A DNA stretch of 26,587 bases from the IMG/VR virus record IMGVR_UViG_3300042987_002483, positions 1-26,587 of that record; one strand, written 5' to 3'. A program made the position numbers and the translations under genes. The DNA comes from a virus. The number at the start of each line of letters is the position of its first letter. The first letter of the stretch is position 1. Below are positions 1,777 to 26,463 of the stretch, piece after piece. Under the pieces are notes generated by a model. That model was not told where the DNA came from. It did no database searches and saw only the letters and a program-made list of their open reading frames with translations.

Positions 1777-3255
1777 GTGGTCTACAGCGCCAATATCCCC
1801 CCAACTGGAGCTGTAGTCAGCGAATCGCCGTTCGTTCGCAGCCTCGAAGTGATCGGCATGATGCCGGACTGGGGCGTAATGGCAGCTGTCACGCACGGAA
1901 CAAACTACATCCGCGACATGAGCGAGACCTATCTCCCTCAGGAACCGCGTGAGGACGACGACGCCTACCAAACCCGCGTTGACCGCAGCGTCCTCAGCCC
2001 CTACACCAGCCGCCTGATCGAAACCGCAGCTGGCGCCATCCTCCGCAAACCCATCCACATCGAAGGCGACGCCTACTGGCTGGAGCTTGCACAAAACATT
2101 GACGGCCTCGGCTCAAACATCAACGAATACGCCCGCCGCGCCTTGGTAAGTAGTCTTACCTACGGCCATAGCGCGATTCTTGTCGACTACCCGGCAGCAA
2201 GCGAAGCTCGCAATCTGGCTGAAGAGCGTGCAATGGGCCGCCGCCCCTACTTCGTGCACGTCGACGCCCCCCAGATCTGGGGCTGGCGCAAGGAGTCCGG
2301 CACCAACCGTTTGCTGCAGGTTCGCATCCACGACTACGACGTCCGCCCGCTGAACGAGTTCGGCGAAGAGCAAGTCGAGGAAATGCGCGTCATCTACCCC
2401 GGCCGCTACGACCTTTACACCCTCGGCCACGAACTCGTCGAGTTCACCGCCACCGGTGGCTACAGCCTCGACGAAATCCCCTTGGTCCCGATCTACAGCA
2501 ACCGCCGTGGCCTGCTGGTATCCCAGCCCCCACTGCTGGACATTGCCAACCTCAATATCACGCACTACCAACGCCAAGCCGACCTCATCCACGCCCTCCA
2601 CATCGCCGCTATGCCCACCCTCGTCCTAGAGGGCTGGGACGACACAACTGGTTCGGCAACGATGGGCGTGAACTACGCCATCGCCATGCAACCGGGCAAC
2701 AAGGCGTACTACGTACAGGCCGACGCCACCAGCTTCGACGCCCAAATGGCCGAACTGGAATCGCTGGCATCCCAAATGTCCACGCTGGGCGTCACCAAAC
2801 TTTTCGGCCAGAAATTCGTCGCTGAATCTGCCGAGGCCAAGCGCATCGACCAAGCCCAGAGCAACAGTGTCCTTTCGATCATCAGCCAAGAGCTGGAAAG
2901 CGCCCTCAACCAAGCCTTCGGTTTCGCCGCCCAGTACGTGGGCATGGAACCACCCGAGATCACGATTGACCGCGACTTCGACTACTACCGCCTGATCGGC
3001 CAAGACGTATCTGTACTGGCTCAACTGAACCAGATGGGCAAGATCAGCGACGCGATGTTGCTGGAGATCCTGCGTCGCGGCGAAGTTCTCCCCGACAACA
3101 TCAACGTCGAAGACGAGGCAGATGAAGCCCGCAGCGAGATGGAAGCCCCTGAACTGATTGAGGCAAACGAGAACACCGGCGAGGACGACATGAACGACCG
3201 CGCCGAAATGACTCCCGACCGCGTAGACCGCCTAATCGAACTACTATCTCGCTAA
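1777..3255 (+). CDS. Portal protein (DUF4055 family)
   Basis: This is the phage portal, a dodecameric ring at one capsid vertex through which DNA is packaged and ejected and to which the tail is attached. The 492-residue product has the DUF4055 layout: an N-terminal helix-rich part with [19 protein letters not shown] and [12 protein letters not shown], a central clip/wing part with DAPQIWGWR and [12 protein letters not shown], and the stem region after [19 protein letters not shown]. The C-terminus is an acidic tail. Start is GTG 1777 with TAGGAG eight to thirteen bases upstream. The gene is strongly biased to C-ending codons. It ends on a TAATG overlap with the collagen-like gene. Confidence 0.9.
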
Positions 3256-4880
3256 TGGCCACCCGAACTGAGCAACTAACGCTCGCCCAAGTCACCGCCC
3301 TGGTGCGCCTCACCCAACGGGTTGACGCACTTAACACGATCCACTCCGGCGACGACCCCCCAAGCGCCGCCCTCGGCACCGACGGCGACTGGTACATCAG
3401 CCTTGACCCCCTCACGATCTACGGCCCCAAAGCCAACGACGACTGGGGCACCGGCGTCGAACTTGCCACGCGCACGCAACTAACCGGACTAACAGTCGGT
3501 GGTGCCCTACCGGGTTCCGGCGGCAGCGGATCCTCCGCAACCATCACAGTTGGCACAACCACAACCGGCGCCCCCGGCACAGACGCCACCGTCACCAACG
3601 CTGGCACCGAATCTGCCGCCATTTTCAACTTCACCATCCCCCGTGGTGCAGTCGGAGCAACAGGTCCCACTGGCGCTACCGGACCAACTGGACCGACAGG
3701 CGCCACCGGCCCCCAAGGTCCACAAGGCGAACAAGGCCCTACTGGACCCACCGGAGCGACTGGTCCGCAAGGCATCCAGGGCATCCAAGGCGAAGAGGGT
3801 CCCCAAGGTGAGCAAGGCCCCCAGGGCGACACCGGCCCCGCAGGCCCAACTGGAGCAACCGGCGCCCAAGGCCCTCAGGGCAACCCTGGCACTGCAGCCA
3901 CTATTGCAATCGGCGCTGTTAGCACAGGTGCAGCCGGATCCAACGTAATTGTTACTAACAGCGGCACAACTACTGCAGCAACGTTAAATTTTACGATACC
4001 AAAAGGTGATAAAGGAGAAACAGGCATTGTTACAGCCACGTCTCCACTCACTTACAACTCTGACACCCAAACAATAAGCACTACCTTAGCAACTAACAAA
4101 CTACTTGGGCGATACAGCAGTGGCACAGGTGTAGCCGAAGAAATAACAATAGGTTCTGGTTTATCTTTAACTTCTGGCACCCTAACGTCAACAGGAGGTT
4201 TTACTGGCGGCACACTTACAAGTAATCTTACTCTTGCAACAGGAACAACATCTGATTCACCACTTAAATTTCAATCGGGCACTAACTTAAGTACTGCTGC
4301 AGCAGGGGCTGTTGAATACGACGGCAAAGTTATTTATTCCACGCCAGCTGGACGGGGTGTTTCGCCATCAGTAATGCTGTACCGCCTAAACAGCGGTTTG
4401 GCGGGTTCTAATGTAAATACCGTTCAATCCACCTTTGGAGCAAGTGTAACGCTTATTGCCAGCACCGTGTATAACTTTGAAAGCTTTTATATCCTACAAA
4501 AAACATCCGGTACAACAAGTCACACAATAGGATCTAGTTTTGGTGGTACTGCAACACTAAATAATATTAGTTATGGTGTAATTTGGAGCCGTGCCGATTC
4601 AGCATTAACTGCTTCGGCAATGTCGCAGTTTAGTCCGTTACAATCTTTTTCCACGTTATCTTCTAACATTGCACTGACAGGTAATATCACTTCTGCAAAT
4701 GAAACCTTTGTTGCGCGAGTAACCGGCACGGTAAGTGTGAATACAGGCGGGACGTTTATCCCACAGTACACATTGAGTGCTGCACCTGGAGGCGCTTACA
4801 CAACTTTAACCGGCTCGTATTTTGCTATCTGGCCCGTTGGCACTTCCGGGTCTAATACCGTCGTTGGGCCTTGGTCATAG
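3255..4880 (+). CDS. Collagen-like phage structural protein
   Basis: This 541-residue protein is probably a virion fibre or head decoration. Residues 1-80 resemble an attachment domain with [15 protein letters not shown]. Residues about 97-132 form a linker ending NFTIPRG. Residues about 131-214 are an uninterrupted Gly-X-Y collagen stretch ([19 protein letters not shown] and onward, many GPQGEQ and GPTGAT triplets), which should form a triple helix. The linker is then repeated (residues about 215-250, ending NFTIPKG) and followed by only a few triplets (GDKGETG). Residues 255-541 are Ser/Thr/Gly-rich and beta-like, a probable C-terminal knob. From about base 3940 the codons turn A/T-rich. 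Translation is coupled to the portal (TAATG). Confidence 0.85.
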
Positions 4881-4952
4881 TGTTGTAACGTAAAACAAAC
4901 GTCTAAAAACCCTTTGCCTGCTAGTCTATAAACGTTCAAGTATCACATAACC

Positions 4953-5660
4953 GTGTCCGAAGAATCGACCGCAGCAGTGTCTCCTGTGGAGCCTATTGCG
5001 ACTCAGCCTGTGGCTGACACGTCTGACTTTGCGGCTCAACTTGAAGCACTTCGTGCAAAAAACCAAGAGTTGATCGCCGAGCGCCGCAAGGACCGCGAAA
5101 ACCGCGAAGCCCTCCAAAAACAAATTGAAGATCTGCGCTTGGCGCAAGAATCGGCAAAAACCGCAAAGTTGGCCGAATCCGGCGAGTTCAAAACTCTCTG
5201 GGAACAAGCCCAAGAAACAGTTGCCGAGCTTAAGCAACAACTTGCAGCAAAAGAATCCGAGGTCGAACAAATCCGCCAAGGATTCACACAAGAACAAGTG
5301 AAATCTGCCGCGATAGCACAACTCTCACAGGCTGGTGCACTGGCACCTGATCAGCTGTATCGTTTACTTCAGGAGAACCTACGCGCTAAAGAAGGACAGC
5401 CTGTGGCTGTTGTCGGCGGCGTGGAAGTTCCAGTTGGTGAATACATCGCCAACTTAAAAAACCCCGGCAGCGGTTACGAGCACCACTTTGCAGCTACGAA
5501 CCGTGCCGGCATGGGTGTTACGGGTAGTGCCCGCAATACCTCCCTTCCCGGCCAAGCCAACCCCTGGTCTAAGGACAGCTGGAACGTCACTCAGCAAATG
5601 ATGATGCTTGCCAGCGACCCCGACAAAGCCCGGTTGTTGAAAGCTGAAGCCGGCCTCTAG
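4953..5660 (+). CDS. Capsid scaffolding protein
   Basis: This 235-residue protein is the likely internal scaffold that shapes the procapsid. Residues about 28-115 are a long charged coiled coil (QLEALRAKNQELIAERRKDR, then KQIEDLRLAQESAK, LKQQLAAKESEVEQIRQGF). The C-terminus is a short conserved helix, NVTQQMMMLASDPDKARLL, the type that binds coat protein in scaffolds of this class. It sits immediately before the major capsid gene, the standard place. Start is GTG 4953; no good Shine-Dalgarno is seen. The 72 bases before it hold no gene, only a TATAAA at 4927-4932 without a convincing -35 box. No protease domain is present. Confidence 0.82.
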   Translation: MSEESTAAVSPVEPIATQPVADTSDFAAQLEALRAKNQELIAERRKDRENREALQKQIEDLRLAQESAKTAKLAESGEFKTLWEQAQETVAELKQQLAAKESEVEQIRQGFTQEQVKSAAIAQLSQAGALAPDQLYRLLQENLRAKEGQPVAVVGGVEVPVGEYIANLKNPGSGYEHHFAATNRAGMGVTGSARNTSLPGQANPWSKDSWNVTQQMMMLASDPDKARLLKAEAGL

Positions 5661-6865: not shown

Positions 6866-7372
6866 ATGGAAACTCGACTCATTCCATCCACTACTGGCTA
6901 CAGCGCCTCACAATGCGGAAAAATAATTAGCTATCACCGACTGGAACCATTTGAACTAAAGCAAGCAGATCATCGCCAAGGGTACAAAAAAGTATCGGTA
7001 AAAACCCCTGCAGGTATAAAAAACAAACTGGTACACCGCCTTGTTTTGGAAGCGTGGGTAGGTCCGTGTCCTGATGGTTGCGTAACAAACCACAAAAACG
7101 GAGATAAAACAGACAACCGCTTAGAAAACTTGGAATACTGCACGCAAAGCGAAAATATGGCACACGCATACGGCTACGGTTTAAGCCCAAAACCGCCTAC
7201 ACGAAAAGGTTCTGAGTGCCGTTTGGCAAAACTGGACGAACAAAAAGTCCTGGCTCTGCGAGCCGAAGATGACCGCGAGCCAGGATACCTAAAACGTTTA
7301 GCTGAAAAGTACGAGATTACGTCATCTACCGCATCAAAAATACTCTTGCGGCGCACTTGGGCGCATATCTAA
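6866..7372 (+). CDS. HNH homing endonuclease (free-standing)
   Basis: This 168-residue protein is a site-specific DNA nuclease of the kind that spreads between phage genomes. The N-terminus (residues 5-25, IPSTTGYSASQCGKIIS) looks like a NUMOD4-type DNA-binding element, which supports the ATG at 6866. The HNH_3-like core follows: VHRLVLEAWVGPCPDG (H57), then NHKNGDKTDNRLENLEYCT (N75, H76, N78, N84, N88). A C-terminal helix-turn-helix runs from about 117 to 165 (AKLDEQKVLALRA, then LAEKYEITSSTASKILLRR, TWAHI). There is no Shine-Dalgarno, and codon use is more A/T-rich than the flanking structural genes, as expected for a mobile insertion. It converges with the next, minus-strand gene and their stops overlap. 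Confidence 0.88.
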   Translation: METRLIPSTTGYSASQCGKIISYHRLEPFELKQADHRQGYKKVSVKTPAGIKNKLVHRLVLEAWVGPCPDGCVTNHKNGDKTDNRLENLEYCTQSENMAHAYGYGLSPKPPTRKGSECRLAKLDEQKVLALRAEDDREPGYLKRLAEKYEITSSTASKILLRRTWAHI

Positions 7373-9783: not shown

Positions 9784-9810
9784 CCCAACAACGTTCACTT
9801 GGTACGCCCT

Positions 9811-10584
9811 ATGGCCACCACCGTTCTGTCCGGCACGTCCGGCGCGCTTTACTACAAACCCGCCGGCACCACCGGCACCTTCGGCGAAGCCGGCGTCAAC
9901 ACTGGCACCGATGTAATCACCGTCGCCCCCTACCTGAACTTCAAGGCAGGCGACCCGGTGAAGTTCCGCGTGGTGAACAGCCAGACCGGCGGTTCCGGCA
10001 CCGGCACTCTGCCTGCACCCATTTCTGACGCCACCACCTACTACGTGCTGAGCTACACCGCTGCGACTGGTGCGCTCACCGTATCGACCTCTGCCGGCGG
10101 CACCATCCTGGCCATCACCGACGATGGCACCGTGGCTGCTCCCAACGAGTTCGAGGTGTATTACGCCGACTTCGCCGTCGTCGGCCAAGTCCGCGACTGG
10201 AGCTTCGAGATCAGCCGCGCTGAAATCGACGTAACCACCATCGGTCAAACTCCTGGTCAGTATGTGCCCTTCCGCAGCTACATCAGCGGCTTCGGCGACG
10301 GCACCGGCACCGCAACGGTCTACATGACCAACGAGGACGCCGCCCTGTCCAACCGCATGATCGAGGACGTGCTCCAGCGCCAGCAAAACGGCGCTGCCTT
10401 CAAGCTCTACACCGACCGCGTGTTTAGCGGCGGCACCCTGAGCGAAAGCCTGAGCCGCTCCATCTCGTTCGATGCAGTGCTGACCTCGGCCAGCCTGAAT
10501 ATCAACCCCGATGACGCCCAATCGGTGACTGTCAACTTCCGCCCTGCTGGCACCCCGACTTTCGACTTCAGCACCTCTGCCTGA
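9811..10584 (+). CDS. Major tail tube protein
   Basis: This 257-residue subunit makes the hexameric rings of the tail tube. The core tube signature lies at about residues 130-235: VGQVRDWSFEISRAEIDVTT, then GQTPGQYVPFRSYISGFGDG, TGTATVYMTNEDAA, and the closing strands ISFDAVLTSASLNINPDDA. Between about residues 35 and 115 it carries an extra beta domain (LNFKAGDPVKFRVVN, then ATTYYVLSYTAATGALTVST), a surface domain seen in many tail proteins. ATG 9811 is preferred to TTG 9799. Strong C-ending codon bias, a structured leader and a terminator at 10614 fit a single, abundant message. Confidence 0.88.
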   Translation: MATTVLSGTSGALYYKPAGTTGTFGEAGVNTGTDVITVAPYLNFKAGDPVKFRVVNSQTGGSGTGTLPAPISDATTYYVLSYTAATGALTVSTSAGGTILAITDDGTVAAPNEFEVYYADFAVVGQVRDWSFEISRAEIDVTTIGQTPGQYVPFRSYISGFGDGTGTATVYMTNEDAALSNRMIEDVLQRQQNGAAFKLYTDRVFSGGTLSESLSRSISFDAVLTSASLNINPDDAQSVTVNFRPAGTPTFDFSTSA

Positions 10585-10680: not shown

Positions 10681-11022
10681 ATGCCCGTTCCTGTACGCGC
10701 AATCGACCGTCTCCGTAAGGCCGCCAACCTGGAGCCAGTCAAAAAAGTAGTGGAGCTGTCCGATGGCAGCAGATTTGAAATGTGGGTGGCACCGCTGACG
10801 ATGGCCGAGCGCGAACGCGCCCAAAAACAAGCCAAATCCGACGACGCCAACGCCTTCGCACTTCAGCTGCTGATTGCAAAGGCCCTCGACGAATCCGGCT
10901 CCAAGTTGTTCAGCGTCGGCGAGGTGGATGTGCTGAAGAACGAAGTGAAGGACAAGGACCTGCAAGCCCTGATGCTGGCGATCCTTACCGACGACGCCGA
11001 GCCCATCGACCCAAAATCCTGA
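10681..11022 (+). CDS. Tail assembly chaperone (G-like, unshifted product)
   Basis: This 113-residue cytoplasmic chaperone is like lambda gpG and helps load tube protein on the tape measure. It has VVELSDGSRFEMWVAPLTMA near the N-terminus, followed by helices (ERERAQKQAKSDDANAFALQ, LLIAKALDESGSKLF, KDKDLQALMLAILTD), the typical make-up of this family. It lies between tube and tape-measure genes, where G always is. It ends DPKS-stop two codons after the heptamer CCCAAAA, where a fraction of ribosomes is expected to shift. No Shine-Dalgarno is seen before ATG 10681. Confidence 0.82.
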   Translation: MPVPVRAIDRLRKAANLEPVKKVVELSDGSRFEMWVAPLTMAERERAQKQAKSDDANAFALQLLIAKALDESGSKLFSVGEVDVLKNEVKDKDLQALMLAILTDDAEPIDPKS

Positions 11023-11207
11023 GCGCCGAACTCCGCAAAGACAACTGGCTCATGCTCCAGTTTGGCGTCGCCAAGGAACTGGGCCTGACTCTTACCGAAG
11101 TTCGGACGACCATGACCGCCGAGGAATTACTCGGCTGGAGCGCCTACTTTCAAGTCCTGAACGAGGACCAGCAAAAGGAACTCGACAAAGCCAGACGCCG
11201 CCGCTAA
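10681..11207 (+). CDS. Tail assembly chaperone G-T fusion by -1 frameshift
   Basis: The predicted 175-residue frameshift product consists of G residues 1-112, then 63 residues read from 11016 to 11204 in the -1 frame (ATC CTG AGC, giving ILSAELRKDNWLMLQFG). The extension continues GVAKELGLTLTEVRTTMTAE and ELLGWSAYFQVLN and ends with a basic KARRRR tail. It has no start codon of its own close to the overlap, and its sequence (WLMLQFG.AKELG, MTAEELLGW.AYF) matches the T half of lambda-type G-T proteins, which binds the tape measure. The stop TAA (11205-11207) lies within the next terminator hairpin. Confidence 0.85.
11010..11016 (+). promoter_or_regulatory. Programmed -1 frameshift slippery site
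   Basis: The heptamer CCCAAAA is read C CCA AAA in the G frame, which is the X XXY YYZ form. Slipping back one base keeps both tRNAs paired (CCC AAA). The G stop TGA is at 11020-11022. The -1 frame opens directly into the T-like extension. No clear downstream stimulatory stem was identified by eye. Confidence 0.87.
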
Positions 11208-11260: not shown

Positions 11261-14200
11261 GTGTCCTCCTACAGAGCTGATATTGAAATCGGCGTAAGAG
11301 GCGCAAGAAGTCTTGAACAACTACGCAGCAGCATCAATCAAACAGCTCGTGCTGTAGATAGTCTCAACGATGTTGTAAGCGCAAGAGGTTCTCTTGTCCA
11401 AAACATTCAAAATTACACCAATAATTTAAATAGAGCCGCGCAGTCTTTGCGCATGGTTGGCGCTGGCACGCAAGCAGAAACAAAAGCAATTAGGGAATAT
11501 GTACGTGCTTTAGGGGAGGCTAACACTGCTCGTGCACGCCAAAATTCTCTTGTAGCGCAAGAAATAGCAAATCAACGGCGCGTTAGCGCTGGTACAGCGC
11601 CTTACGGCCAGCAAGGACCTGCTTTGCCTCCGGCAATGGTCAAAAGTCGCCAAATCCAGCAAAACTGGAACCGCTTTTTCCAAGAAGCAGCACAAGTTGG
11701 TCAAGAACTACAAACTACAGCAGCAGCTAAAACAGTAAACATTAGAAACAGCTGGAACCGCTTTTTCCAAGAAGCAGCACAAGTTGGTCAAGAACTACAA
11801 ACTACAGCAGCAGCTAAAACAGTAAACATTAGAAACAGCTGGAACCGCTTTTTCCAAGAAGCAGCACAAGTTGGTCAAGAACTACAAACTACAGCAGCAG
11901 CTAAAACAGTAAACATTAGAAACAGCTGGAACCGCTTTTTCCAAGAAGCCACGGAAGTCGCCGTGGAACTCACTGTTCAAGCTCAACGTACAGCTGCAGC
12001 TATTAGAAGCAATGAAGGTGCTGCCAGTGCAGCTGCAAGACAACGCTTAGCTGATGCTGCTGCACAACGGCAACGTATTACAAACGCAGGTTTTGGCGTG
12101 CAAGGTCCTGCTTTGCCACCTACTGCCGCTGGTACAACAGGGGCAGGTTTTAGAGGACGTATTGGAGGTGCAGTTAGTGGTGCAGTTATTGGTGGAGCTT
12201 TTCCACTGTTGTTCGGCCAAAGCGGTGGAGCTGCTGCGGGCGGTGCTATCGGCGGTCTTGTAGGAGGGTTAGCTGGTCCTGGCGGAGGTTTTGCAGGTTC
12301 ATTGCTCGGCACGCTAATCGGGGATATTGCATCTAGAGGACAGGCAGTTAAACAACTAGGCGAAGATTTAGGTTTTTCTGTCGAACAAACTAAGCAGCTG
12401 GCAGCGGCGTTTAAGACAGCAAATACCGACGTAGAAAAATTTACAGCAGTCATACAAAACGTACGCGGTCTTGGATTGGAACTTGAAGATCAAGCTAAAG
12501 CAATCCAACTTGTCACTACACTCACCGAAAAGTACGGTGGATCCTTTGAAAAAACAGGTAACGCTATTACATCCGCTCTCGAATCAGGAAAAGTAACACA
12601 GGCGACGCTTAATCAATTGACAAGCCAAGGGATAAATATCCAAGGAGAGTTAGCAAATAAGTACGGTATTAGTCGTGACGCCATTCTACAAATGGCGAAA
12701 GATGGCGATATTTCAGTACAAACACTTATTGATACTTTAGTAAAAATGGGTAATGAAGGTGTAGCAGCCGCGAACAAGCCCAAAACAGCAATGGAGCGTT
12801 TGACCGCTAGCGTCAACGCCCTTGGACAGTCTTTAGCTGGTTTAGCCACAAATCTAGTACGTGCGTTTGGGCCGGCTATGCAGTGGCTAACTGATCGCGT
12901 TACTGATTTTGTCAATGCAGTATCTAGAGCTATTTCAAGACTTTCGGATTTAATGAGCGGAGGCCGTATGGCTCAAGCAGATATTCAAGCTGCTCGTGCT
13001 GCCGAAACAGCAACGCAACGTAAGTTTGGAGTACTTGGTGGAATACGTGCGTTTAATCCAGCGGCACAAAAGTTTTATGAAAGTCAGAAGCAAGCAGAGT
13101 TGCGGCGTTTAGTCCCTGGTGCTTTTGCTCCGACTGCCCCAGCCGCAGGGCCGCTTACAAGTTTTCAAGTACCGTCTCAAGCGGCACCGTCAGGTGGCGC
13201 CGGAGCAAAAGGCCCTAAACCACCAGAAGATCGCACTGCTCAGCTTCAAGCGGATTACAAAGCACTTATTGAAATCGGAAATGCCGAAAATCTTATTAGA
13301 GACTTTCTATTTGAGGGTAGAGAATTACTTGCTGTAGATGTAGAGCTAACAAAGACGCTAGCAGATATAGAACGTGACAGGGTTAAGGCTTTAGAGCAAG
13401 CAAACTATCAGAGCGAGCGCGAACTAATAAACAAAACAGCGATAGCTCGGGAGAGTTTTGCACGTCAAGTAATAGAAGATAAAATCCGCGAAATTACGCA
13501 AAAACGCTTTGAAGAAGAACTACGTGCACAGCAAGCCATACGCGACGCAGTTAAACCTTTTACAGATCTAACAAAACAGCAGCAACTACAGGCGCAGTAT
13601 GGACGTACGTATTTACGGCTAGTTACAGAAGGAGTGCTTCCCGCTGAGGCAGAACGTATTGCAAATTTTGAGAGGCTTGTTACCGAACAACTTACAGCTG
13701 TAGAAGAACAGATAAAAATAACGGAACTTGCCATATTAGAGGCTAAAGCCCGTGGGACGAGCACAGTCGAGCTAGAAAAACAGTTGAAGATATTTAAGGA
13801 TCAGCAAAATGCCGTACAGGGTGCAGCAGCCGCTGGCCCAGAAAAGGGTAAAACAGGCTCTGAACGCTTACAAGATGCTATTGCTACGGCTAGAGGTGAA
13901 CTTAACAACTTAACAGATCCCATCAACCAAGTTGTTGCCGGAGCCAAGGCTATCGGTGATGCGTTCCAGCAAGCCTTTAAGGGCCTTGTTTCTGGCGCGA
14001 TGACTGGCCAACAAGCGTTAGCTGCGTTCTTCAAAGGTGTAGGCGATCATTTCATGGATATGGCATCCCAAATGATTGCCAAACTTATTGAAATTTATAT
14101 TCTTGAGACCGTACTCGGACTTATTAGTGGAGCTGCTTCAGGTAGTTTCCAATCAAAATCTAATGCAGCAGGTAAAGCTACATTTGGAGGCAGCTTTAAG

Positions 14201-14614
14201 GGTACAGGTTCTAGTACCTTTGGTTCCGGAGGGATTCGCGTTCCGGGTTTTGCGGAAGGTGGTTTTGTTACCGGCCCTACCCGCGCCGTTATCGGTGAAG
14301 GCGGCGAACCAGAATACGTCATCCCGCAATCCAAAATGTCCGCTGCCATGTCCCGTTACTCTCGTGGCGCTCGGGGCAAATCTGTCATCCCTGGTAGCGG
14401 TACAAGTGCGGACGGAAATACGGCAACCGCCGCACTCGAACCCATTGACGTGCGCTACAGCGTGGAACGCATCAATAATGTGGAGTACGTCACTGTGGAT
14501 CAATTCCAAGCCGGAATGTCCCAAGCTGCCCAGCAAGGAGCACAACGTGGTGAACAAGCCACCCTGCGCCGCCTGCAACAGTCCAGCTCTACCCGTCGCC
14601 GCATCGGAATGTAA
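11261..14614 (+). CDS. Tail tape measure protein
   Basis: At 1117 residues this is the ruler that sets tail length and is ejected ahead of the DNA. Residues 1-130 are helical (VRGARSLEQLRSSINQTARA). Residues about 135-230 hold three exact and one partial copy of a 29-residue unit with WNRFFQEAAQVGQELQ. Residues about 292-355 are a glycine-zipper membrane stretch (GGAVSGAVIGGAFPLLFG, GGLVGGLAG). The tape-measure domain is at about 360-530 (LGFSVEQTKQLAAAF, VTQATLNQLTSQGINIQGEL, MAKDGDISVQTLIDTL). Coiled coils at 660-900 follow. The C-terminus has the lambda gpH-like VPGFAEGGFVTGPTRAVIGE then GGEPEYVIPQSK. GTG start; codons are much more A/T-rich than tube and G/T. Confidence 0.93.
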   Translation: MSSYRADIEIGVRGARSLEQLRSSINQTARAVDSLNDVVSARGSLVQNIQNYTNNLNRAAQSLRMVGAGTQAETKAIREYVRALGEANTARARQNSLVAQEIANQRRVSAGTAPYGQQGPALPPAMVKSRQIQQNWNRFFQEAAQVGQELQTTAAAKTVNIRNSWNRFFQEAAQVGQELQTTAAAKTVNIRNSWNRFFQEAAQVGQELQTTAAAKTVNIRNSWNRFFQEATEVAVELTVQAQRTAAAIRSNEGAASAAARQRLADAAAQRQRITNAGFGVQGPALPPTAAGTTGAGFRGRIGGAVSGAVIGGAFPLLFGQSGGAAAGGAIGGLVGGLAGPGGGFAGSLLGTLIGDIASRGQAVKQLGEDLGFSVEQTKQLAAAFKTANTDVEKFTAVIQNVRGLGLELEDQAKAIQLVTTLTEKYGGSFEKTGNAITSALESGKVTQATLNQLTSQGINIQGELANKYGISRDAILQMAKDGDISVQTLIDTLVKMGNEGVAAANKPKTAMERLTASVNALGQSLAGLATNLVRAFGPAMQWLTDRVTDFVNAVSRAISRLSDLMSGGRMAQADIQAARAAETATQRKFGVLGGIRAFNPAAQKFYESQKQAELRRLVPGAFAPTAPAAGPLTSFQVPSQAAPSGGAGAKGPKPPEDRTAQLQADYKALIEIGNAENLIRDFLFEGRELLAVDVELTKTLADIERDRVKALEQANYQSERELINKTAIARESFARQVIEDKIREITQKRFEEELRAQQAIRDAVKPFTDLTKQQQLQAQYGRTYLRLVTEGVLPAEAERIANFERLVTEQLTAVEEQIKITELAILEAKARGTSTVELEKQLKIFKDQQNAVQGAAAAGPEKGKTGSERLQDAIATARGELNNLTDPINQVVAGAKAIGDAFQQAFKGLVSGAMTGQQALAAFFKGVGDHFMDMASQMIAKLIEIYILETVLGLISGAASGSFQSKSNAAGKATFGGSFKGTGSSTFGSGGIRVPGFAEGGFVTGPTRAVIGEGGEPEYVIPQSKMSAAMSRYSRGARGKSVIPGSGTSADGNTATAALEPIDVRYSVERINNVEYVTVDQFQAGMSQAAQQGAQRGEQATLRRLQQSSSTRRRIGM
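11665..11949 (+). repeat. 87-bp exact tandem repeat inside the tape measure gene
   Basis: Copies begin at 11665, 11752 and 11839, with a truncated fourth at 11926 that diverges after 11949. Each starts CTGGAACCGCTTTTTCCAAG. The three full copies look identical base for base over 87 bases (29 codons), so the duplication is recent. The fourth copy continues as a diverged but similarly patterned helix (EATEVAVELTVQAQRTAAAI). Confidence 0.93.
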
Positions 14615-15075: not shown

Positions 15076-15445
15076 CCTGATCGGTAGACCCTATCGCTAT
15101 GGCGCGGACGGAACCGATCCCGACGCAGCGCTCGACTGCATCCACTTGGTACTTGTAGCTTTAGACGAACTGGAAATACCTAGACCGCCGGCATCAGTCC
15201 ACTGGTACGAAGCCACCTGGCGTCAGATCGGCCGCGAATTATTGCAGTGGGGAAAGCGCGTTGGCGCAGCTAAACTCGATGGAGACGTGGTGTTGCTGTC
15301 CACGCATAAGCACGCATTTGGAGTGGTATGGCAGCAGGGCGTAATCCACATCAGCACACCCAGGCAAGCGGTGACTTGGTGCCCTATCGGGATCATGCAG
15401 CCCGTGCATACGCTGCGCCACTTCTCCCGTTTGAACGCGACTTAA
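15062..15445 (+). CDS. NlpC/P60-like tail assembly peptidase (gpK-like)
   Basis: This 127-residue cysteine-peptidase-fold protein of the tail tip probably cuts peptidoglycan or helps tip assembly. The catalytic cysteine is C26 in YRYGADGTDPDAALDCIHLV, the family's G..Y..GG....DC..LV motif with Ile-His in place of Ser-Gly. The catalytic histidine is H84 in HKHAFGVVWQQGVIHIS. The usual N-terminal JAB/MPN half of lambda gpK is absent, so only the NlpC/P60 domain is present. ATG 15062 is chosen, overlapping the L-like gene by 14 bases; the upstream in-frame ATG at 15035 would lengthen the overlap. Confidence 0.8.
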   Translation: MCVSDLIGRPYRYGADGTDPDAALDCIHLVLVALDELEIPRPPASVHWYEATWRQIGRELLQWGKRVGAAKLDGDVVLLSTHKHAFGVVWQQGVIHISTPRQAVTWCPIGIMQPVHTLRHFSRLNAT

Positions 15446-19409: not shown

Positions 19410-19835
19410 ATGGCAAAAATCTATACAGGCCGGGACGGCCAACTACTGATTGACGGGACCGAGCAGCTTAAGGTCACGAACTGGTCTATGACCGGAAGCC
19501 TTGAGATGCTGGAAACCACCACGCTTGGCGACTCCCAGCGTACTTACACACCTGGGGTACAAGAGTTTAATGGCAGCGCTTCGTTGCTGTACTACAACGA
19601 CGGTGCTGGACGCAACGACGCAGCCACAGCCCTAAAAAATGTTCTACGCGTTGACGGTGTATCTAGTGGTGACACCGTTGATATGCGCCTAAGACTTGTT
19701 GACGGTAATACAAATAGCGATGTACGTCTTACGGCTTACATTACAAGCGTCAGTTTCGGAGCGGCTGTAGGCGAAGTAAGCCGTGCCGAAATTTCATTCC
19801 AAGGCACCGGAGCCCTTACTGCGGTAACGATCTAA
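19410..19835 (+). CDS. Tail tube-like protein, second copy
   Basis: This 141-residue protein has the fold signature of a phage tail tube: GRDGQLLIDGTEQLKVTNWS, then a MTGSLEMLETTTLGDSQRTY element matching the tube family's 'TTLGD..R.Y.PG', then EFNGSASLLYYND and the end VSRAEISFQGTGALTAVTI. It lacks the extra beta domain of the main tube protein at 9811. Its place after J suggests a tip or adaptor ring rather than the main tube. It shares the W-strand plus T-T-I/L-G spacing with the proteins at 9811 and 19835. It overlaps the next gene as TAATG. Confidence 0.75.
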   Translation: MAKIYTGRDGQLLIDGTEQLKVTNWSMTGSLEMLETTTLGDSQRTYTPGVQEFNGSASLLYYNDGAGRNDAATALKNVLRVDGVSSGDTVDMRLRLVDGNTNSDVRLTAYITSVSFGAAVGEVSRAEISFQGTGALTAVTI

Positions 19836-20731
19836 TGGGCATCTATCTTGGTCAGATTGGTACGATTGAACTAACGCGCCAGTCGCTTGAGGGCAGCAAA
19901 GAATCTGTTGTCAATCCATCGGATGTAAATGCAGACCGAGACAGATTTAGTTTTGATTTTGACGAGGGTTTTTTGGTTAGTGGCGATCTACTGGAGCTTA
20001 CAACAACAGACGGAACAAATTTAGATTTTGTAGACGCTAGCGGTTGGGCAAATAACACTGTTCAAAGTAGTGGCAACTGGTACGTATTTGTTGACGAACT
20101 GGGCGGGATCAAGCTATACGACACCTTTGACGACAGCCTAGAAGGCAGCACTGCGGGCCTTATACCGCTGACCGCTATTGCACGAGACATTCCAATACGC
20201 GCCACGATACGCGACCGGGATACGCGCATTTTGGGGCAAGTTACAGAGTACGAATTAAACACAACACGTGAAACTGTTGACGTCACTGTTTTAAGTGACG
20301 AACATCGGCAGCAATACAGTAGTTTAATTAGTGGGAGCGGGCAGCTAGTTGCTCAATGGGATTACGTCAACAAAGCAGGAGAGGAGCCCGTTAATTATTT
20401 ACTGCAACTTGTTGTGCGTACAGAAGTCGGTGCATCTTTTCACGGCAAATTTTATATTAAATACGGAGACACTGCTGCCCAAGGAGGCAACTTTGCAGCA
20501 TCTCAAATTAACGACGCCCTTTGGTGGGAGTTTAATGCCATCGTCACCGGGGCAGCTGTCAGTTTTACGCCGGACAGCGTTGTGAACGCCACAATATCGT
20601 TCGTAACCACAGGCCCTGTACGCTTAAAGGCCAGGACACAGCAGAAGCGTTTCCTGTTACAGGAATCCGGAGACAAGATTGAGCTAGAGCAAGATGCCAG
20701 CTCTTATCTGGTACTAGAGGAACTGGAGTAA
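19835..20731 (+). CDS. Tail protein with tube-like core and extra beta domains
   Basis: This is a 298-residue protein. Residues about 35-115 form an insertion-type beta domain (DRFSFDFDEGFLVSGDLLEL, then NNTVQSSGNWYVFVDELGGI, KLYDTFDDSLEGS). Residues about 128-260 carry a tube-like pattern, GQVTEYELNTTRETVDVTVL then SDEHRQQYSSLISGSGQLVA, QWDY, parallel to the strand and TT-L-G turn of the other tube proteins. The C-terminus (FLLQESGDKIELEQDASSYL) is a short strand-rich tail often found on fibre-associated phage proteins. I infer a tip/adaptor ring that anchors fibres encoded next. Codons are A/T-rich. Confidence 0.66.
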   Translation: MGIYLGQIGTIELTRQSLEGSKESVVNPSDVNADRDRFSFDFDEGFLVSGDLLELTTTDGTNLDFVDASGWANNTVQSSGNWYVFVDELGGIKLYDTFDDSLEGSTAGLIPLTAIARDIPIRATIRDRDTRILGQVTEYELNTTRETVDVTVLSDEHRQQYSSLISGSGQLVAQWDYVNKAGEEPVNYLLQLVVRTEVGASFHGKFYIKYGDTAAQGGNFAASQINDALWWEFNAIVTGAAVSFTPDSVVNATISFVTTGPVRLKARTQQKRFLLQESGDKIELEQDASSYLVLEELE

Positions 20732-22537: not shown

Positions 22538-24706
22538 ATGGCTCTCCAGCATTTGCGTTCTAGCACTGCAAGCAAGCGTCCTTTGCCTGCAAGCATGAGC
22601 GATGGGCAGCTTGCAATCAATACCAATTCCACCAGTCCTGGACTGTTCTACAAAGACAGCGCTGGAGCATTGGTCAAAGTTGGTCCTGTTCACGTAGGCA
22701 CGACTGCACCTAATGCCAGCCCCGCTAGCGGCGGCGAAACTGGCAATAGTGTTGGTGAACTGTGGTTAGATACCAGCGCCAGTCCTAACCAACTCAAAAC
22801 GTGGAACGGCAGCGCATGGGTGAGTGACTTTCCTGACGAGATCCCTGTCTCCAAACTGGCTGACGGTACCGCTCGCCAACTGCTACAGACGGATGCTGCT
22901 GGTACCGGCGTTGAGTGGACCAGCAACGTTGATGTACCTGGGACACTTGATGTAACCAGCACCGCAACATTTGACAGCATCATTAGCGCATCTGCTGGTG
23001 CGGCTGCAACACCAAGCATTACATTTACCGGCGATACAAACACCGGTATTTATTCGCCTGGCGCAGATCAAGTAGCCATCTCGACTAACTCCTCTCAGCG
23101 CCTGCTAATTGATGCGAGTGGTCGGGTTGGCGTGGGGAACGCATCACCCGGCAGTTATGAGTCAACATTCAGCCAGCTTGTTGTTGGCTCTAGCGGAGCC
23201 AATGGCATAACCATTGTTTCCGACACTGCAAGTAACGGCAATATTGCATTTGCTGACGGAACCGCTGGACTAGATAAATATCGTGGTTATATTCAATATA
23301 TACACAGCACCAACGCTTTAGCCTTTGGCACTGATGGCGCTGAAAGGTTCAGAGTTGATTCCAGTGGCCGCTTAGGTCTGGGGACTAGCAGCCCTAGCGC
23401 AACTCTTGAAGTTGGCGCAGTAAGTGGAGCCGTTACAGCGGGAGACCTGATTGTCTCTACAGGCAGCACAACAGCCTCCGTGACGGTTGGTAGGTTAAGT
23501 AGTACAAATGCAGACAATACAACCTTTAACGTTAGAAACAGGGTCGGAACTTCGATTTTTTATGTAGATACTCCCAATAGCAGAGTAGGGATTGGCTCTA
23601 CAGCCCCTGGTTCATTATTAACTTTGAACGCAGCGTCAAACCCGTCACTCAGAATTGATATATCAAATACAAGGTACGCAAGCCTGACTGCTGATACAAG
23701 TTCTAATGCCACCTTCTTAGAATCTTACGAAAACTACCCACTTGCATTTTCTGTTTCCTCCGCCGGCGGAAGAACGGAAAGAGCACGTATTGATACATCG
23801 GGGCGCCTGTTAGTTGGCACGTCTTCGAGCTATGCAGTAGGCAGGCTTGTAGGAAACGGTAATTATCCCAATCAAGCCAATCAGCAGATACACGGCCCAT
23901 CAAATAGTTTTGCAGGTCTTTCGCTTGTCACAAATAGAAATTCAGACGAAACAGGTAGTTTTATTGCCCTTGGCAAATCAAGGGGCACTACTCCTGGAAG
24001 CGTCGATGTTGTTGTAAACGGCGACGACCTTGGTACCATTTGTTTCGTGGGCGCCGATGGCACTGATCTCGAAAGTGTGGGTGCCGCTATTGCTGCTCGG
24101 GTAGACGGCACCCCCGGCGCTAACGACATGCCGGGCAGGTTAGTGTTCTCCACTACCGCCGACGGAGCAAGCAGCCCGACGGAGCGGCTCAGAATCCTTG
24201 CTAATGGCAATACAAATTTTAGAAACTGCACTGATGTCTACCCAACTACAGATAATGCAGTAAAACTTGGCGCTGACGGGTATCGCTGGTCGGCAGTATG
24301 GGCGGCAAACGGCACTATCCAGACTTCCGATCAACGCGCTAAGGCTGACATTGCAGATTCGCAGCTTGGCTCTGACTTTATCAAAGCTCTTCGCCCTGTT
24401 TCATACAAATGGATTGAGGGTGGCAAGATTGACACGGGCGAACGCGACGAACAAAACAACTACATTTACGAGTCCGTTCCAGGCACTCGCACCCACTGGG
24501 GCTTTATTGCTCAAGAGGTAAAGCAAGCTGTTGATGCTGCGGGCGTTGACTTTGGCGGCTGGGTATTAACTGACAAGGATGACCTTGATAGCCAGCAAGC
24601 TCTGCGCTACGACCAATTCATCGCACCGCTGACCAAAGCACTGCAGGAGGCACTGGCCAAGATCGAAACTCTTGAAGCCAAAGTTGCAGCCCTTGAAGGC
24701 GTGTAG
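22538..24706 (+). CDS. Tail fibre with C-terminal S74 self-cleaving chaperone
   Basis: This is a 722-residue fibre. The N-terminus MALQHLRSSTASKRPLPASM then SDGQLAINTNSTSPGLFYKD is a known attachment domain. ELWLDTSASPNQLKTWNGSA is a hairpin module like that in the fibre before it. The shaft has several 'R.RID.SGR.G.GT' repeats (RLLIDASGRVGVGNASPG, ERFRVDSSGRLGLGTSSP, RARIDTSGRLLVGTSS). Residues about 595-722 are the peptidase S74 intramolecular chaperone: TSDQRAKADI with candidate dyad Ser597 and Lys602, then HWGFIAQEVKQAVDAAG, and a terminal coiled coil (ALQEALAKIETLEAKVAALE). Cleavage before Ser597 would release it after trimer folding. Confidence 0.92.
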   Translation: MALQHLRSSTASKRPLPASMSDGQLAINTNSTSPGLFYKDSAGALVKVGPVHVGTTAPNASPASGGETGNSVGELWLDTSASPNQLKTWNGSAWVSDFPDEIPVSKLADGTARQLLQTDAAGTGVEWTSNVDVPGTLDVTSTATFDSIISASAGAAATPSITFTGDTNTGIYSPGADQVAISTNSSQRLLIDASGRVGVGNASPGSYESTFSQLVVGSSGANGITIVSDTASNGNIAFADGTAGLDKYRGYIQYIHSTNALAFGTDGAERFRVDSSGRLGLGTSSPSATLEVGAVSGAVTAGDLIVSTGSTTASVTVGRLSSTNADNTTFNVRNRVGTSIFYVDTPNSRVGIGSTAPGSLLTLNAASNPSLRIDISNTRYASLTADTSSNATFLESYENYPLAFSVSSAGGRTERARIDTSGRLLVGTSSSYAVGRLVGNGNYPNQANQQIHGPSNSFAGLSLVTNRNSDETGSFIALGKSRGTTPGSVDVVVNGDDLGTICFVGADGTDLESVGAAIAARVDGTPGANDMPGRLVFSTTADGASSPTERLRILANGNTNFRNCTDVYPTTDNAVKLGADGYRWSAVWAANGTIQTSDQRAKADIADSQLGSDFIKALRPVSYKWIEGGKIDTGERDEQNNYIYESVPGTRTHWGFIAQEVKQAVDAAGVDFGGWVLTDKDDLDSQQALRYDQFIAPLTKALQEALAKIETLEAKVAALEGV

Positions 24707-25983: not shown

Positions 25984-26165
25984 GCGTCGTTCACACCACT
26001 GACTACGGCAACGGCTTCAGCTTGGATCAGCTGGAAAACGAACGTGGTGAGCTGTACTACCGCGCCTGTAAGGACAGCATTTGCCGCTACGCCGAAGACC
26101 ACTACATCGCAATGATGTACCTGGAAGGCATGGGCTGGGACCCTAAGCAACAAGCCCCTCAGTAA
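25980..26165 (+). CDS. Hypothetical protein after the membrane gene
   Basis: This is a 61-residue protein, MSVVHTTDYGNGFSLDQLEN then ERGELYYRACKDSICRYAED, HYIAMMYLEGMGWDPKQQAP. It is aromatic and acidic, with two cysteines seven residues apart and no membrane segment. It starts on the ATGA overlap with the membrane-coil gene, which supports real co-translation. Its 3' end overlaps the 3' end of the minus-strand HNH gene by 23 bases, so the two transcripts converge here. The family is not recognised. Confidence 0.68.
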   Translation: MSVVHTTDYGNGFSLDQLENERGELYYRACKDSICRYAEDHYIAMMYLEGMGWDPKQQAPQ

Positions 26166-26463
26166 TCCACGCAATAATCGCATCCTCCCGGTGCGGTTCC
26201 CAGAACGGCTGGTCCCTGTACCACTCCAGCCAATCCTCCGCCGACTTTGAGATATTGCACGCAAAACAGCACGCCACCAAATTCTGCTGGTGCGTATGCC
26301 CACCACGAAATTTCGGGTGCACGTGATCGAGTGTTGCAGATCGCCCCAGATCTGTCCCGCAATAGGCGCAAGAGTTTTTCCAGTGGTTAAGGATTGATTG
26401 CCTAAATCTTGCTTTTGCTTCCTTCTTGTTTAAGTATTCGCCATCTTCAATGCGATGGTTCAT
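26143..26463 (-). CDS. HNH endonuclease, minus strand
   Basis: This is a 106-residue HNH nuclease of the zinc-ribbon (McrA-like, PF01844) type. The zinc-binding CAYCG (C32, C35) is followed by ATLDHVHPKFRGGHTHQQNL (D46-H47 catalytic pair, N61) and VACCFACNISKSAEDW (second cysteine pair C66, C69, with N70). Start is ATG 26463-26461. It lacks the extra DNA-binding domains of the HNH protein at 6866, so it is of a different lineage. It converges with the late operon and may be a free-standing homing nuclease or, as in many siphophages, a partner of the terminase; the first is likelier from position. Confidence 0.87.
   Translation of the reverse strand: MNHRIEDGEYLNKKEAKARFRQSILNHWKNSCAYCGTDLGRSATLDHVHPKFRGGHTHQQNLVACCFACNISKSAEDWLEWYRDQPFWEPHREDAIIAWITEGLVA

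Follow-up and report, generated by a model that had tools for sequence, protein, structure and literature searches.

A variable array of 29-residue units in the tape measure protein of an uncultured phage and its relatives

The stretch of DNA analyzed here (the window) is 26,587 bp long and constitutes the entire genome record IMGVR_UViG_3300042987_002483, with nothing beyond its ends. It carries a structural gene cluster that includes genes for the portal, capsid protein, head completion, tail tube, tail chaperone, tape measure, tail tip, and fibre proteins. The closest named relatives are Synechococcus phages, so this uncultured phage likely infects a cyanobacterial host. The tape measure region contains the following features:

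10681..11022, + strand, tail assembly chaperone, gpG-like (PHROG tail assembly chaperone match; sequence)
11261..14614, + strand, tape measure protein gene, 1117 aa (PHROG and Pfam TMP_3 matches; gene position)
11609..11631, + strand, left copy of the direct repeat flanking the unit cassette, GQQGPALPP (sequence)
11665..11949, + strand, perfect run with a period of 87 bp, 3.28 copies (tandem repeat analysis; sequence)
11666..11752, + strand, unit 1, WNRFFQEAAQVGQELQTTAAAKTVNIRNS, residues 136-164 (sequence)
11753..11839, + strand, unit 2, identical to unit 1, from residue 165 (sequence)
11840..11926, + strand, unit 3, identical to unit 1, from residue 194 (sequence)
11927..12013, + strand, diverged terminal (fourth) unit, WNRFFQEATEVAVELTVQAQRTAAAIRSN, from residue 223 (sequence)
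12098..12120, + strand, right copy of the direct repeat flanking the unit cassette, GVQGPALPP (sequence)
12155..12355, + strand, landmark region used for distance comparison (sequence)

The identification of the protein as a tape measure, made initially from the sequence alone, is borne out by profile matches and by gene position. Six PHROG tape measure families match its C-terminal part (best E value, 6e-9), and the match to Pfam TMP_3 scores 40.8 bits (E value, 2.6e-10), 0.2 bits under the cut-off of 41. The long gene lies beside a chaperone gene of the G/GT type and ahead of the distal tail genes, followed by a gene for a tail fibre J-like protein at 15328. The chaperone gene contains a −1 slippery heptamer, CCCAAAA (C CCA AAA), just ahead of its stop codon, and the −1 frame remains open to about position 11205; most of the relatives also have the heptamer, about equally far from the start of the tape measure gene. 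The chaperone end and the open −1 frame (10985-11205) are arranged as in the lambda G/GT pair.

The period-87 run spans 285 bp with 100% matches and no indels, in frame within the tape measure open reading frame, which confirms the earlier claim of base-exact 87-base copies. It is the top tandem repeat of the window, with a score of 570 against 72 for the next one, and chance is therefore excluded. The fourth unit, whose first 23 bases still lie inside the perfect run, keeps the WNRFFQEA start and diverges after it; it shows 62% identity to the other units in DNA and 48% in protein. The description of the protein after the exact copies as a diverged echo thus holds for this single unit but not farther on, as no additional W..FF units were found in the window tape measure. 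The Trp residue and the Phe-Phe pair do occupy fixed places in the unit (W1, F4, and F5), as had been proposed. The exact copy number in the window (three identical units) should be regarded with caution. A typical short read does not cover the array, and the contigs of several relatives stop or start inside their arrays, as would happen if assemblers broke at these sites.

Related phages were gathered as metagenomic contigs from a viral collection by searches that started from the tape measure protein and continued with an aligned set of unit regions. W..FF arrays were detected in 40 contigs, including the window, with 25 representative phages among them. The arrays consist of 1 to 10 units, some of them being cut by contig ends, and the maximum of 10 is found in contig L019; the relatives L004-L008 and L071-L078 contain no units. 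The window array has 4 units, versus 3 in L003, at 91% DNA identity. Similarly, the 10 units of L019 compare with 5 in L021 (96.6% DNA identity) and 4 in L023 (92%), and the 5 units of L040 compare with 2 in L052 (93 to 94%). L046 and L047 have 6 units each versus 4 in L049, at 93.7% DNA identity; all units in these arrays are diverged and hard for an assembler to collapse, so this difference is unlikely to be an assembly error. L061 and L064 are identical across 8197 bp apart from exactly one 87-bp unit; taken alone, this difference could also reflect collapse during assembly, as the units involved match exactly. The sequence-only reading anticipated variable copy number in related phages, and the counts indeed range from 0 to 10, changing in whole 29-residue steps between close relatives instead of being the same in all of them.

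Each additional unit places the FPLLFG landmark about 29 residues farther away in most close pairs; the units are therefore not compensated nearby. Apart from the units, total tape measure length is not quantised: L052, which has 3 units fewer than L040, is nevertheless 10 residues longer owing to an extra non-repeat block. Compensation of extra units elsewhere in the protein, with the total length kept constant, fits only L040/L052, is contradicted by the other close pairs, and was rejected. In L021, L022, and L030, a poly-glycine stretch of about 25 residues comes after the last unit; its length and composition vary between relatives.

None of 50,697 phage records yielded an isolated phage with the unit at E values up to 1, and bacterial and archaeal genomes, when scanned, contained no relatives. 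A degenerate search pattern based on the unit variant of the window, poorly framed for L003, retrieved no further contig. The cultured cyanophage KBS-S-2A shares its major tail protein with the window phage (68% in DNA) and has no units in its 938-aa presumed tape measure. The cyanosiphoviruses S-CBS1, S-CBS3, and S-LBS1 share a conserved C-terminal tape measure segment with the window protein (55 to 66% identity over 53 residues), but the shorter tape measures of S-CBS1 (577 aa) and S-LBS1 (584 aa) lack the units.

The full copies in the window array show zero differences, as do the two full units of L003. Between these two phages, 7 of the 87 unit positions differ, each fixed in all full copies, and a silent change at unit position 15 is common to every copy within each phage and extends to the beginning of the diverged last unit. 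Because the 7 fixed differences separate the two arrays and none is found within either, both arrays are, as judged from their sequences, undergoing concerted evolution, with copies repeatedly regenerated from one another. The suggestion that exact identity reflects very recent slippage or recombination agrees with such homogeneous arrays; it need not mean one recent expansion, since the fixed differences point to repeated turnover. In L019 (positions 4590-5111), successive units carry A and T in turn at a silent site, resulting in a perfect higher period of 174 bp, which seems to come from amplification of a two-unit block. Gain or loss of the unit cassette through the flanking direct repeat is plausible, because the unit-less relatives have either one copy of the direct-repeat motif (L004-L008) or two near-adjacent copies (L071-L078).

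The spacing between units is 29 residues in all 109 intervals of the 40 arrays and in 75 of the 75 intervals from the 25 representatives. Fresh duplicates keep 87 bp trivially. However, 34 of these 75 intervals lie between neighbours with <70% DNA identity and still contain no indel, whereas flanking regions of the same proteins, at comparable protein identity, have 0.70 gap openings per 29 residues on the upstream side and 1.58 on the downstream side; the contrast is large, but the comparisons are not mutually independent and no probability is attached to it. Because the old, diverged intervals are free of indels and the flanks are gapped at such rates, the sequence statistics indicate that the 29-residue length is under selection at the protein level. 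The unit has the form W-N-x-F-F-x-E-A.... Among 50 non-redundant units, W1, F4, and A8 are invariant and F5 is nearly so; the search pattern included W and an aromatic residue or Leu at positions 4 and 5, while A8 was outside it.

Aromatic repeats in tape measure proteins are known. Periods of 11 or 11/18 residues, with duplication and loss, occur in about 5% of annotated tape measures (PMC3271669), and related Bacillus prophages carry either 3 or 4 copies of a 44-residue block (Belcaid 2011, PMC3271669). The 11- and 11/18-residue repeats of staphylococcal and Bacillus phages and of TP901-1 (PMC3271669; Mahony 2016, PMC5099701) are likewise tandem, are marked by Trp and Phe, and undergo block duplication and loss; variable unit number between related phages is a trait that the 29-residue family shares with them. 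The window unit differs in having 29 residues with one Trp and one Phe-Phe pair and no aromatic residue at a spacing of 11 or 18. Positions 12 and 19 are never aromatic in the 50 non-redundant units, so that neither of the Belcaid/Siponen patterns, [FW] every 11 residues or an 11-11-18 series, is found. The earlier comparison of the Trp and Phe-Phe to known tape measure repeats is thus correct insofar as aromatic tandem repeats are known, but the known 11/18-residue pattern is absent here. Further differences are the base identity of the window copies, the variation between close relatives with up to 10 units, and the closeness of the 29-residue unit to one tail ring, compared with about 1.5 rings for 44 residues and about 0.4 for 11. 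No paper on a 29-residue tape measure unit was found in the open literature, which omits most subscription papers. While tape measure repeats as such are already known, the 29-residue unit appears, by its sequence, to be new among them.

The units are predicted to form a continuous helical rod, in line with the earlier suggestion of a helical unit. The best AlphaFold2 model of residues 113-290, built from 37 rows, is one continuous helix over the repeat region (152 residues, positions 12-163 of the 178-residue segment) with a mean pLDDT of 85.9; the remaining four of the five models had pLDDT values of 41 to 50, and a first run with residues 1-297 and 11 rows gave a low confidence of 46.5. Averaged over the 50 non-redundant units, hydrophobicity has its strongest period at 3.62 residues per turn (harmonic 8). 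This signal is modest (P=0.03 for harmonic 8 and 0.41 for any harmonic, in an underpowered test with 29 points), and the Leu/Val at unit position 24 is off the hydrophobic stripe.

The original helix arithmetic for 29 residues (eight turns, roughly 4.3 nm) is correct: 29 × 0.15 gives 4.35 nm, or 4.2 nm with the constant of 0.145 nm per residue measured for the TP901-1 ruler (PMC5099701). Published tube rings of siphophages have a rise of 38 to 43 Å and a twist of 17 to 24° (PMC9022992), so the calculated 4.2 to 4.35 nm stands against ring rises of 3.8 to 4.3 nm obtained for other phages. A parallel to the predicted helical ruler comes from HFTV1, an archaeal virus whose hexameric tape measure has a full atomic model with a continuous helical coiled coil, residues 2-316, aligned with 11 rings (PMC12494034). 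Division of these 315 helical residues by 11, made here, gives 28.6 residues per ring; the section on this model mentions no 29-residue tandem repeat, and the likeness lies in the structure. The lambda gpH-type ruler, to which Katsura assigned about 0.15 nm per residue (cited in PMC5099701), is comparable in its ruler function; the literature examined contained no mention of a repeat of the 29-residue type in lambda. The proposed closeness of the unit to one tail ring thus agrees with the published rises and with the HFTV1 structure, which makes one ring per unit quantitatively plausible by calculation and analogy. In TP901-1, however, one measurement gave a tail 8.5 nm shorter after deletion of 29 residues, nearer two rings and twice the expectation (PMC5099701).

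The array probably encodes a ruler segment built from the 29-residue helical unit, in which copy number would alter tail length by about one ring per unit. We infer that slippage or unequal recombination between identical adjacent copies adds and removes 87-bp units, because close relatives differ by whole units and the arrays are homogenised. Selection at the protein level, as the spacing statistics indicate, keeps the length of 29 residues. The units would form the predicted rod, and each copy should add about 4.2 to 4.35 nm to it, which the ring rises and ruler constants in the literature equate with about one tail-tube ring. Tails of natural variants would accordingly be longer or shorter by about one ring for each unit gained or lost. 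A stricter proposal, that the unit is in register with the tube lattice, with each unit meeting one ring identically, and that wild populations change tail length in quantised single-ring steps via minisatellite copy number, is rather doubtful. At 3.60 residues per turn, 29 helix residues make 8 turns plus 20° over 43.5 Å; a slightly different pitch gives about −4° instead. The similarity of this screw to that of the tube (38 to 43 Å, 17 to 24°) is a testable coincidence that is suggestive only.

The match to the ring could itself be coincidental, a possibility that deserves serious attention while falling short of an even chance. A length of 29 residues would then be kept because eight whole turns leave the W/F stripe facing one way in the tape measure bundle, and tail length would still follow copy number but without ring register. 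Whole-turn repeat lengths, such as 25, 29, and 36, would be favoured by any helix, whether or not a ring is involved. The ratio 29/8 is 3.625 residues per turn, harmonic 8 is the strongest period in unit hydrophobicity, and tape measure repeats of 11 and 18 residues likewise fit whole turns without matching a ring (PMC3271669). Against it, of the lengths whose rise equals or approaches that of a ring (about 26 to 29 residues), 29 is the only one that also completes whole turns; this point, like the screw similarity, is only suggestive. Neutral slippage, with units coming and going without a fitness effect in a helix that tolerates any whole-turn insertion, appears unlikely: it accounts for the trivial length conservation of recent duplicates, but the 34 diverged intervals without indels and the invariance of W1, F4, and A8 (the first two partly required by the search pattern) argue against it. 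The frequent tolerance of repeat deletions in TP901-1 (PMC5099701) is in its favor.

Even less probable is that each unit serves as a docking site for a tail chaperone of the gpG/gpGT type, its copy number tuning chaperone loading during assembly. The gpG-like gene with its conserved slippery heptamer adjoins the tape measure gene, and the authors of the TP901-1 study speculated that aromatic repeats pair with chaperone aromatics; in the same study, however, changing a whole repeat to alanines left infectivity unaffected (PMC5099701). The unit-less L004, L005, and L071 also retain the slippery heptamer upstream of the tape measure, and chaperone binding would in any case be compatible with a ruler role. 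Misassembly of the window's exact copies, the true number being different and perhaps one, is very improbable. The perfect 285-bp array exceeds a typical short read, the contigs of L025, L026, L027, L030, L062, and L068-L070 end or begin inside arrays, and the L061/L064 difference could be a collapse. Nevertheless, the array is not a one-off, as arrays are present in many independent assemblies, and neither the diverged arrays (L043, L046/L047, and L049) nor the alternating variant of L019 could be produced by simple looping or collapse.

A ruler segment with variable unit number would bear on the contact between the tape measure and the rings, which a 2022 tail review listed as unsolved (PMC9022992); the tape measure is blurred in several published cryo-EM maps. 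Close relatives that differ by whole 29-residue units offer a ready-made experiment, with different ruler lengths in a similar phage background. The array would be an example from nature of a minisatellite within a coding sequence that tunes a structural dimension, and the strict constraint on 29 residues has to be accounted for by any model of how the tape measure is packed.

Several other genes of the window can be mentioned. Tail tube families match three genes, one preceding the tape measure gene (9799-10584) and two adjacent ones well downstream (19410-19835 and 19835-20731, the last below the cut-off), so the phage possibly encodes more than one tube-like protein. Two HNH endonuclease genes are found, one located between the genes for the capsid protein and head completion (6866-7372, + strand) and the other on the opposite strand (26143-26463, − strand). 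The protein encoded at 3255-4880, between the portal and capsid genes, contains collagen-like G-x-y repeats. The tail fibre or spike gene at 22538-24706 encodes a Peptidase_S74 chaperone domain near the C terminus of its product; its stretch at ∼24101-24187 is 90 to 98% identical in DNA to the tail fibre genes of Synechococcus phages S-CBP3, S-CBP4, and S-CBP42, which suggests exchange with other phages.
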